Assembly (NCBI RefSeq): GCF_900182585.1
Contig: NZ_FXTM01000001.1
Coordinates: 62,001-126,000, forward strand
Reading direction: 5' to 3'
From: Balnearium lithotrophicum
GTDB lineage: Bacteria > Aquificota > Aquificia > Desulfurobacteriales > Desulfurobacteriaceae
Length of the DNA: 64,000 nt
A program made the position numbers and the translations under genes. How positions within the stretch are numbered: the stretch's first letter is position 1; the number at the start of each line of letters is the position of its first letter. This document shows, piece after piece, positions 25,035 to 62,287 of the stretch. The notes beneath the pieces are model-generated. The model searched no databases, was not told the origin of the DNA, and was given only the letters and a program-made list of their open reading frames with translations.

Positions 25035-25700
25035 ATGGAATTTAAAAGGTGGAAGAATTTAGGAGAAATCGTTCCTGACTACATTGAGGAGTTCTGTAAC
25101 CTTTACAATGAAAGAGAGGAAGTCCTCAAAGAGATAGAGGAGTTTGCCAAGGAAACGAAAACGCCCATTCTCCTGCCCTCATCTGCTGCACTACTGAGAC
25201 TGTTGGTAGGAATAGAGAAGCCAAAGAGGATATTGGAAATAGGGACAGGAATAGGTTACAGTACCCTCAATATGTTTTTTGCCAGTCCTAAGTCCAAAAT
25301 TGTTACTGTTGATTCAAACAGAAAAAGGATGGAGGTTGCTAAATCATTCTTTGAAAAAGTGGGAGCTCCAGTAAAAACGGTCCTTTCTGACGGAATTGAA
25401 TTTTTGAGGGAGCTTATCTGCAGGGAGGAAACGTTCGACTTTATCTTCGTTGATTCTGTAAAGTCAGAGTATCCCTTTTTCAACTTCAAACTACAGGCAG
25501 TTTTAAGTCCTGAAGGTGTTGCTGTATTTGATAACGTCCTTTTTAGGGGATACGTTGCTGGCAGGAGGTACGATAAGAGGTATGAGAGAAGTATAAATCT
25601 CCTTAAATTTTTTTTTGAATCGATAAAGGATTATCCCAACTCGGAAAAATTTCTCATTCCTGTCGGTGATGGACTTTTAATCCTTAAATTTTGTGTATAA
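25035..25700 (+). CDS. O-methyltransferase family protein
   Basis: A 221-residue Rossmann methyltransferase of the COMT-like (Methyltransf_3) family. The SAM-binding motif is RILEIGTGIGYSTLNMF (about residue 64). It is followed by an acidic residue after VTVDSN, a metal-site region FDFIFVDSVKSEYP and AVFDNVLFRGYVAG. Family members methylate catechols, tRNA uridine (TrmR) or other hydroxyl groups with Mg2+. The overall pattern resembles TrmR-like bacterial members. The stop lies just before the riboswitch, so it is probably a separate transcript. Confidence 0.75.
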   Translation: MEFKRWKNLGEIVPDYIEEFCNLYNEREEVLKEIEEFAKETKTPILLPSSAALLRLLVGIEKPKRILEIGTGIGYSTLNMFFASPKSKIVTVDSNRKRMEVAKSFFEKVGAPVKTVLSDGIEFLRELICREETFDFIFVDSVKSEYPFFNFKLQAVLSPEGVAVFDNVLFRGYVAGRRYDKRYERSINLLKFFFESIKDYPNSEKFLIPVGDGLLILKFCV

Positions 25701-25705
25701 TTATT

Positions 25706-25812
25706 CTGGGTTCCGAGTCTGGCTTCCTAAGGGGTTGAAAGCCCTATGGAGTCAGACCGATAGGGTATGTCTGGAAACGGACATGCCTCCCGAGCTTGGA
25801 AAGGAACCCGAG
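25706..25812 (+). ncRNA. Molybdenum-cofactor (Moco) riboswitch aptamer
   Basis: This region lies just ahead of modABDC-moeA and shows several marks of a Moco RNA. P1 is GGGTTCC (25708-25714) with GGAACCC (25803-25809). An arm carries the 11-base tetraloop receptor, CCTAAG (25726-25731) with TATGG (25745-25749). A 10-pair arm at 25764-25787 is capped by a GAAA tetraloop (25774-25777). The receptor and tetraloop are the two partners of a well-known RNA docking pair. A conserved-looking GCCTCCCGAG...GGAAAGG core follows. I recall such features for the Moco motif; a covariance-model search was not possible. Confidence 0.75.
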
Positions 25813-25817
25813 TATAG

Positions 25818-25852
25818 AGGGGTCAGTCCAGGCTCGGGCTGACCCCTTTATT
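25818..25852 (+). terminator. Riboswitch-controlled intrinsic terminator
   Basis: GGGGTCAG (25819-25826) pairs with CTGACCCC (25839-25846), with further TCC/GGG pairs inside, then TTTATT. GCTCGGG (25832-25838) in the terminator is fully complementary to CCCGAGC (25789-25795) in the aptamer core, and its CTCGGG also to CCCGAG (25807-25812) at the 3' side of P1. Aptamer folding and antitermination are therefore mutually exclusive, predicting an OFF switch when cofactor is bound. Confidence 0.8.
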
Positions 25853-50085: not shown

Positions 50086-50111
50086 TTGAAAATTATTTGC
50101 ATAAATATACT
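50086..50111 (+). promoter_or_regulatory. Candidate promoter of the selenocysteine peroxiredoxin
   Basis: TTGAAA (50086-50091) and TATACT (50106-50111) lie in the gap ahead of the gene, but the 14-base spacing is short. TAATTG at 50084-50089 could serve as a 16-17 base alternative. AT-rich inverted elements (AATT-GAA-AATT) could be a peroxide-regulator site. Confidence 0.35.
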
Positions 50112-50142
50112 AAAAGTAAAACCAAATTTAAGGGGGGAAAAT

Positions 50143-50757
50143 ATGGCACTTGTAGGTCAGAAAGCACCTGAATTTGAGGTTCAGGCTTACGACCCTGTAA
50201 ACAAAAAGTACGTTAACGTAAAACTTTCGGACTATGTACCGAACACTGAAGGTAAGTTCTTAGTACTCTGTTTTTACCCAGCAGACTTTACCTACGTCTG
50301 ACCAACTGAGTTGGCTGCGGTCGCAGCTAAGTACGACGAAATTAAAAAGAGAGGAGCTGAGGTTTTGGCAATTTCAACAGACACCGTGTTCAGCCACCAA
50401 ATTTTCTGTGAAACAGAACCTTTAATGAAGGGTGTTAAGTACCTCTTGGGTTCTGACCCAACGGGGGAAGTTTCAAGGAAATACGGCGTTTACATTGAGG
50501 AAGCCGGAATTGCAAGGAGGGGAAGGTTCATAATTAACCCTGACGGAGTTATTGTTGCAGAGGAAGTTCTCAATCCACCTGTCGGCAGGAACGTCAATGA
50601 ACTACTGAGACAGCTTGATGCCTGGAAGTACGTTTATGAGCATCCAGACGAGGCATGTCCTGCCAACTGGAGGCCTGGTAAGAAGACACTCAAACCGGGA
50701 CCAGACATTACTGGAAAGGTTGGTGAGGTTATTACTATTGATGAGATTCTGTCTTAG
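50143..50757 (+). CDS. Selenocysteine-containing 2-Cys-type peroxiredoxin
   Basis: A 204-residue AhpC/Prx1-family enzyme that reduces peroxides. The frame starts at ATG 50143 (AGGGGGG upstream) and is interrupted by TGA at 50299-50301, codon 53. The flanks read FYPADFTYV and PTELAAV; in ordinary family members the position holds the peroxidatic Cys (FTFVCPTE), so TGA encodes selenocysteine. The frame continues without interruption to 50757 and keeps the resolving Cys172 (DEACPANWRPG). An 8-base-pair hairpin with a GGTC loop follows the TGA. The yedF gene shows that the organism handles selenium. Selenium should raise peroxidase speed and resistance to over-oxidation. Confidence 0.93.
50299..50330 (+). 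promoter_or_regulatory. Selenocysteine TGA codon and bacterial SECIS-like hairpin
   Basis: TGA (50299-50301) is followed by a stem TTGGCTGC (50311-50318) / GCAGCTAA (50323-50330), with one G-U pair, closed by loop GGTC (50319-50322). E. coli SECIS elements have the same GGUC in the apical loop, at a similar distance (here 17 bases) from the UGA. A small extra hairpin CCAAC-TGA-GTTGG (50302-50314) could compete. Confidence 0.85.
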
Positions 50758-56197: not shown

Positions 56198-57443
56198 GAA
56201 TATAGACAGGGAAAATTCCAATTCGATAGAGACCTATCTTTCCAACGGCGGATATCTGTCCTTGCGAAAGGCTCTAAGGGAAATGTCACCTGGGGATGTT
56301 ATTGAGGAAGTTAAGAGGAGCGGTTTGAGAGGAAGAGGGGGAGCAGGTTTCCCCACCGGGATGAAGTGGGAGTTTGCAGCTGCAGATATTAAGGAACCGA
56401 AGTTCTTCGTCTGTAACGCTGATGAGGGAGAGCCGTGTACATTTAAGGACAGACTTATCATTGAGAAGGACCCCCATGCCCTCATAGAGGGAATGCTCAT
56501 AGGTGCCTATGCAACGGGGTGCCGCTACGGTTACATCTACTTGAGAGGAGAGTATCCAGTAGGGAGGAAAATTCTCGAAAGGGCAATTGGAGAGGCTTAC
56601 GATAAGGGCTTTTTAGGCGAGAATATATTAGGAACGGAGTTCTCATTTGACCTTTACATCCACAGTGGAGCTGGAGCTTACATTTGCGGTGAGGAAACGG
56701 CTCTCATTAACTCCCTTGAGGGAAGGAGAGGAGAGCCGAGGATAAAACCCCCCTTTCCGGTTAATGCAGGGTACCTTTGGAAACCTACCGTGGTCAACAA
56801 CGTAGAGACCCTTGCCAACATTCCACTCATAATTGAAAGGGGAGGAGATTGGTACGCATCCATTGGCTCTCCAGACTGTCCGGGTCCCAAGCTTTATCCC
56901 GTAAGTGGTAAGGTTAAGAGGCCCGGAGTTTACGAGCTTCCAATGGGAACTCCTCTTTCAGAGATAATATACGAACACGCTGGTGGAATAGTAGGAGACA
57001 GAAAACTGAAGGCAGTCTTTCCGGGAGGTGCATCGAGCTCCGTTTTAACCTCCGAAGAGATAGACGTCCCTATGGACTTTCCTTCACTGGCTAAGGCTGG
57101 TACGATGCTCGGCTCCGGTGCTGTTATGGTTTTAGACGAAACGGACTGTATAGTAAGGGCTTCTTTAAGGCTCATAAAGTTCTTCAGACACGAATCGTGC
57201 GGTAAGTGTACTCCCTGCAGGGAGGGGACAGACTGGCTCGTTAGAATTGTAAGTAGAATAGAGGAAGGTTTGGGAAGTGAGGACGACCTTGATACCATCT
57301 TGGACATTTCATCGGTTATGGAGAACTCCTTCTGCGGCCTTGGAATGGCAGCCCACAACCCTGTTGTTTCCTCTGTCAGGAAGTTTAAGGATGAATTTTT
57401 AAAGCACATTAAACTTGGAAGATGCCCCTTTAGGAGAAGCTGA
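56178..57443 (+). CDS. nuoF: NADH-quinone oxidoreductase subunit F
   Basis: A 421-residue subunit that binds NADH and FMN. LRGRGGAGFPTGMKWEF (about 49), VCNADEGEPCTFKDR (about 77) and SGAGAYICGEETALINSLEGRRGEPR (about 163) are the NAD/FMN motifs. The N3 [4Fe-4S] cluster is in ESCGKCTPCREGTDW with a distal Cys in SFCGLG. Length is normal. It starts within the end of nuoE and its stop touches the nuoG start. Confidence 0.96.
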   Translation: MERLLLRNIDRENSNSIETYLSNGGYLSLRKALREMSPGDVIEEVKRSGLRGRGGAGFPTGMKWEFAAADIKEPKFFVCNADEGEPCTFKDRLIIEKDPHALIEGMLIGAYATGCRYGYIYLRGEYPVGRKILERAIGEAYDKGFLGENILGTEFSFDLYIHSGAGAYICGEETALINSLEGRRGEPRIKPPFPVNAGYLWKPTVVNNVETLANIPLIIERGGDWYASIGSPDCPGPKLYPVSGKVKRPGVYELPMGTPLSEIIYEHAGGIVGDRKLKAVFPGGASSSVLTSEEIDVPMDFPSLAKAGTMLGSGAVMVLDETDCIVRASLRLIKFFRHESCGKCTPCREGTDWLVRIVSRIEEGLGSEDDLDTILDISSVMENSFCGLGMAAHNPVVSSVRKFKDEFLKHIKLGRCPFRRS

Positions 57444-61988: not shown

Positions 61989-62287
61989 TGGGTGCAACTC
62001 ACCTTTTTATTTTAAGTGGCCTTCTCTTTGCAGTCGGAATCTTTGGGATGGTCATTCGGAGGAACGTAATCTCTCTCTTTTTCTCCCTGGAGCTCCTTTT
62101 AAACAGTGCAAACGTTCTCTTGGTCGGATTTTCTAAAGCTCATGGAAACCTATTTGGAGAGGTTTTTGTTTTCTTTGTACTTGCAGTTGCAGCAGCTGAA
62201 GCGGCTGTTGGACTTGCCATAGTCGTTGCAATTTACAGGTACAGAAGGAGCATAAATACAGAAGATTTCTCCATTTTGAGGTGGTAG
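61988..62287 (+). CDS. nuoK: NADH-quinone oxidoreductase subunit K
   Basis: A 99-residue membrane subunit with three helices. It shows FSLELLLNSANVLLVGF, where the Glu in SLELLLN is the conserved proton-path residue, and VFFVLAVAAAEAAVGLAIVVAIYRYR with the second Glu. Length is normal. Its start shares the last base of nuoJ. Confidence 0.95.
   Translation: MGATHLFILSGLLFAVGIFGMVIRRNVISLFFSLELLLNSANVLLVGFSKAHGNLFGEVFVFFVLAVAAAEAAVGLAIVVAIYRYRRSINTEDFSILRW

Follow-up and report, generated by a model that had tools for sequence, protein, structure and literature searches.

A probable selenocysteine-containing typical 2-Cys peroxiredoxin in the Desulfurobacteriaceae

Introduction

Does the in-frame TGA in a peroxiredoxin gene of Balnearium lithotrophicum end one of two short reading frames, or does it specify selenocysteine (Sec) at the catalytic position of a full-length enzyme, and if the latter, did the residue arise within this lineage or come with a selenoprotein already known from elsewhere? 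The gene lies in a 64,000-nucleotide stretch of DNA (hereafter the window; positions 62,001 to 126,000 of contig NZ_FXTM01000001.1, assembly GCF_900182585.1). Sec-containing peroxiredoxins are already known, as two papers record (PMC9312934, PMC13188914). For the Aquificae, a 2006 survey gives two selenoproteins in two selenoprotein families (PMC1794560), and a literature text search combining selenoprotein with Desulfurobacterium or Thermovibrio found, in the passages returned, no paper describing the present enzyme, the Thermovibrio match being a general review.

Results

Read through its TGA, the gene occupies 50143–50757 of the window, on the forward strand, as do all of its features given below, and encodes 204 amino acids followed by a TAG stop (50755–50757). 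GGGGGG at 50132–50137, 5 bases 5′ of the ATG at 50143, reads as a likely ribosome-binding site. The read-through protein matches Pfam AhpC-TSA (3.3e-36, residues 4–138) and, further downstream, 1-cysPrx_C (residues 160–187), the domain pair of typical 2-Cys peroxiredoxins; an AhpC fold is safe to assume, because the protein is 40–50% identical to solved AhpC structures. The TGA (50299–50301) is codon 53 and falls on the peroxidatic-Cys site of the PxxxTxxC motif (P46, T50, U53): aligned PDB sequences of AhpC and 2-Cys peroxiredoxins have their peroxidatic cysteine there (one entry has Ser), and in the final alignment every sequence has either Sec (TGA) or Cys. The rest of the typical 2-Cys residue set is complete, comprising the conserved active-site arginine, Arg126 (AGG, 50518–50520, in RGRF), invariant across all alignment groups, and the resolving cysteine, Cys172 (TGT, 50656–50658, in the CPANW motif of EACPANW), which the alignment shows as Cys in all Sec proteins of the Desulfurobacteriaceae (18/18) and in all Cys paralogues (13/13). 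As in a selenoprotein gene, an in-frame UGA takes the place of a redox-active Cys and is flanked by homologous sequence on either side, and the predicted layout is that of a typical 2-Cys peroxiredoxin with Sec as the peroxidatic and Cys as the resolving residue. An earlier note, made from the letters of the window alone, had placed the TGA at the peroxidatic position, with homology continuous across it, and had foreseen that standard gene callers would split the gene or start it at 50311; the alignment with PDB sequences, the span of the Pfam matches and the outcome of ORF calling with translation table 11 (two ORFs from one gene, 50086–50301 and 50311–50757) agree with it on each point.

The TGA is a property of the family. 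The search set comprised 136 Aquificota genomes, 22 of them, the window's own included, from its family, the Desulfurobacteriaceae. A peroxiredoxin gene with one TGA was present in 19/22 of these, giving 19 distinct sequences from seven genera, all 19 with the TGA at codon 53; the 18 other genes are 83–94% identical to that in the window, and the nearest named records of the gene are Desulfurobacteriaceae, Thermovibrio and Desulfurobacterium bins. TGA codons considered as Sec in peroxiredoxin genes of other Aquificota (G036, G037, G012) proved to be the terminal stops of those genes.

Downstream of the TGA lies a bacterial SECIS-type stem-loop (50311–50330; arms 50311–50318 and 50323–50330, apical loop GGUC at 50319–50322). 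Its 8 bp stem begins 9 bases after the TGA, placing the loop 17 bases from it; a stem-loop soon after the UGA with a G in the apical loop is the form of a bSECIS, and a GGUC-type loop at such a distance is one which we take to resemble the SECIS of Escherichia coli fdhF. The folding energy of the hairpin is unremarkable by itself (z −1.39; p 0.057 when compared with 20,000 sequences that encode this peptide in synonymous codons), and a scan against Rfam gave a chance match only, below threshold. Codons 58–61 (GCT GCG GTC GCA), in contrast, are the four least variable among 66 fourfold-degenerate columns, a level of constancy reached in 0/200,000 random samples (p < 5e-6, an optimistic value as the sequences are related). 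At two pairs of the stem the changes compensate for each other, and none of 500 shuffles reaches the observed covariation score. In the Cys paralogues, no hairpin was found at the equivalent site, where the codons varied. Folding energy is too weak to serve as sole proof of a SECIS; conservation lifts the hairpin above chance. The GGTC-capped hairpin that the earlier note had seen 17 bases after the TGA is thus real in position and is accompanied by both synonymous constraint and compensatory pairs. The four fixed codons illustrate how a SECIS constrains the coding sequence that contains it.

The machinery for Sec is present in the same genome, which is 99.9% complete: selA (C1:129074-130429, 625 bits) lies 3.1 kb beyond the end of the window, and the genome also has selB (428 bits), selC, the tRNA-Sec gene (78.9 bits; anticodon TCA according to ARAGORN), and selD (G000:C4:49883-50809, 368 bits). 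The selD gene has a TGA of its own where Cys or Sec is usual (ASGUGAK), making SelD a second selenoprotein, which suggests that Sec decoding is in use. Across the family, tRNA-Sec scored above the cut-off in 20/22 genomes; none did so in the drafts G119 (87% complete) and G135 (99%), both of which have the TGA gene, and these absences are probably assembly gaps. Of two circumstances that the earlier note had named as counting against Sec, absence of the machinery is therefore contradicted by the presence of all four genes, and a sequencing error turning TGC or TGT into TGA fares no better, the same TGA recurring in 19 separately assembled genomes.

The genome also encodes a Cys paralogue (G000:C30:3146-3745), 82% identical to the Sec protein and sharing all catalytic residues besides position 53; it differs in having Cys53 and in being without a SECIS and without a four-residue insertion at about residues 32–35. 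Among the Desulfurobacteriaceae genomes, 11 have both genes, 8 the Sec gene only and 3 the Cys gene only. The Sec gene adjoins rluA in most genomes, with rpoD farther on and often a polysaccharide deacetylase gene on the opposite side. At this rpoD–rluA locus, G133 has the Sec and Cys genes in tandem, while G132 and G134 have the Cys gene alone, a pattern consistent with tandem duplication and the later loss of either copy; G132 and G134 keep tRNA-Sec, so that their lack of the Sec gene is not due to a lost Sec system. No relatives were found in viral contigs, and a scan for promoters and terminators gave nothing clearly exceeding shuffles.

In the DNA tree the Desulfurobacteriaceae Sec genes form one clade (99/100), with the Cys genes of the sister family outside it, and in the protein tree Sec appears in three places: in the Desulfurobacteriaceae, among Campylobacterota (Sulfurovum, Sulfurospirillum) and in PrxU. 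Placing every Sec peroxiredoxin in one clade, as a common origin would require, is rejected (p-AU 1.4e-6). Most likely, the gene was duplicated and one copy switched from Cys to Sec, at the base of the Desulfurobacteriaceae or close to it.

The chief competitor to this history is orthology with the known PrxU, the Sec being owed to horizontal transfer or shared ancestry without an independent switch. PrxU (NF040737) is indeed the top NCBIfam match (236.1 bits), and trees that unite PrxU with the Sec proteins of the Desulfurobacteriaceae are compatible with the data (p-AU 0.096, or 0.396 with 35 PrxU sequences and rougher, faster constrained trees). The match is, however, below the curated cut-off of 270, and the Cys paralogue scores slightly higher (240.6 bits); C172, present here, is missing in 33/35 PrxU sequences; an N-terminal part of about 34 residues in the PrxU model has no counterpart here; and the protein is 82% identical to its Cys twin as against 47% to the original PrxU of Eubacterium acidaminophilum. 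Window-by-window identity does place codons 51–74 closer to PrxU than to the Cys twin, as would be expected either of orthology or of a mosaic gene into which the SECIS stretch had been pasted from a PrxU gene. Site-wise likelihoods, on the other hand, favour PrxU only at the SECIS-coding codons 54–63, while codons 64–80 favour the Cys twin. With the PrxU-like signal so confined, convergence forced by the stem-loop suffices to explain it and a mosaic is unneeded; the mosaic reading is unsupported, and we consider orthology with PrxU unlikely. We favour instead, with moderate confidence, a history in which the Desulfurobacteriaceae duplicated a 2-Cys peroxiredoxin and, in one copy, exchanged Cys for Sec and gained an in-gene SECIS but retained the resolving Cys, all this independently of both PrxU and the Sec peroxiredoxins of Campylobacterota.

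Readings of the TGA that dispense with Sec fare considerably worse. Were the TGA a true stop, the gene would be a pseudogene or two separate ORFs, the second a downstream fragment or a product started at the TTG at 50311, and table-11 calling does return two ORFs; yet there is no further stop, the TGA is fixed over seven genera, and a product started at 50311 would be without the catalytic residue. Moreover, dN/dS is about 0.04–0.11 upstream of the TGA and 0.02–0.065 downstream (where dS was computable, several comparisons being saturated): strong purifying selection acts both before and after the TGA, and this reading is very improbable. Equally hard to credit is that UGA is read as Trp or Cys, without selenium. 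Near-cognate misreading of UGA occurs to some extent in bacteria, but here there is a dedicated Sec system and a conserved SECIS, and the site needs a chalcogen nucleophile. Least probable of all is a sequencing or assembly error, for which one substitution in TGC or TGT would be enough and which most of the compared genomes, being metagenome assemblies, might seem to invite: the Cys paralogues of those same assemblies read TGC or TGT. Conservation of the TGA with purifying selection on both sides excludes error and pseudogene alike.

Two other features of the window may be recorded. A second read-through candidate, the TGA at 57441, was set aside as it resembles, judged from translation only, a stop/start overlap (TGATG) of two genes. 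A Moco/tungsten riboswitch (RF01055, 79 bits) lies at 25699–25822, and 3′ of it are ORFs like a molybdate/tungstate transporter set (ModA-, ModB-, ModD- and ModC-like) and a MoeA-like protein.

Discussion

The gene very probably encodes a Sec-containing typical 2-Cys peroxiredoxin, decoded by means of a SECIS and likely the product of a Cys-to-Sec switch in the family. We infer Sec insertion, catalysis, the selenenylsulfide, the electron donor and the physiological role, drawing the cycle from established peroxiredoxin chemistry. In translation, SelB, held at the downstream GGUC stem-loop, would bring in tRNA-Sec (selC) to decode the UGA, with Sec synthesised by SelA using selenophosphate from SelD. 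Sec53 would then attack H2O2 or organic peroxides, becoming a selenenic acid, which Cys172 of the partner subunit would resolve to a selenenylsulfide (Sec53–Cys172′), and thioredoxin and thioredoxin reductase would regenerate the enzyme. The genome has a thioredoxin reductase (397 bits), and a search of it for AhpF gave nothing above the cut-off; the top-scoring gene was this very thioredoxin reductase. The role may be peroxide defence in anaerobes meeting oxygen at vents.

If the gene is read in this way, a selenoprotein family is added to the Aquificota. As gene callers split or truncate the gene, proteomic data may miss its active-site peptide. In this connection, a proteomic study of Desulfurobacterium thermolithotrophum HR11 reports that a putative peroxiredoxin, GFV12_RS03815, was 14.2-fold higher in abundance when H2 was limiting (PMC12724263); it could be either the Sec enzyme or a different peroxiredoxin. 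Close twins in a single genome, one with Sec and one with Cys, alongside genomes with one copy only, make the advantage of selenium over sulfur testable on one scaffold, in hot-vent anaerobes; and if the switch was the family's own, its three outcomes (both genes, Sec only, Cys only) are a natural series on the benefit of selenium to a peroxidase.

Among the closest known systems is PrxU, the Sec peroxiredoxin of Eubacterium (Peptoclostridium) acidaminophilum (Sohling et al. 2001, as cited in PMC9312934 and PMC13188914). The PrxU family (NF040737) shares with the present enzyme an AhpC/Prx1-type fold, a TxxU motif with Sec as the peroxidatic residue, and a UGA followed by a downstream bSECIS; it differs in having Cys at 172 in only 2/35 sequences and a longer N-terminus in the model. 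Unlike PrxU, the Desulfurobacteriaceae Sec protein keeps C172, scores below the family cut-off and groups with the Cys AhpC proteins of Aquificota, the Cys twin of its own genome among them. For one PrxU carrier the surrounding phylum was sampled, and PrxU proved common there, with 66/198 genomes above the cut-off. An Acidobacteriota bin (G140) also has, besides Cys AhpC genes, a PrxU-type gene whose peroxidatic codon is TGA.

With AhpC itself (TIGR03137) the enzyme shares fold, domain order and the residues P46, T50, R126 and C172, differing in its predicted Sec for the peroxidatic Cys, in its score (194.2 bits against a cut-off of 272) and in a genome with no AhpF above the cut-off. An AhpC selenoprotein has been described in Blastococcus saxobsidens (PMC5330540); it likewise combines Sec with a bSECIS, but there Sec is encoded by UAG and served by a tRNA-Sec with a CUA anticodon, as against UGA and UCA in the window's genome.

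The Sec peroxiredoxins of Campylobacterota, seven genes from Sulfurovum, Sulfurospirillum and Nitratifractor-like bins (L066, L070, L073, L074, L075, L077, L078), have the TGA at the same codon and keep C172 in 6/7. They nonetheless form a clade of their own within the Cys genes of Campylobacterota and have another conserved stem-loop, CTGGCTGCCGTGAATGCAGC; one clade uniting them with the Desulfurobacteriaceae Sec proteins is rejected (p-AU 3.9e-5). For peroxiredoxins, Zhang et al. 2006 list five Cys-to-Sec events (PMC1794560), so that an independent switch here would be one more of a known kind, and the enzyme of the Desulfurobacteriaceae a further, apparently separate, case of a Sec peroxiredoxin.
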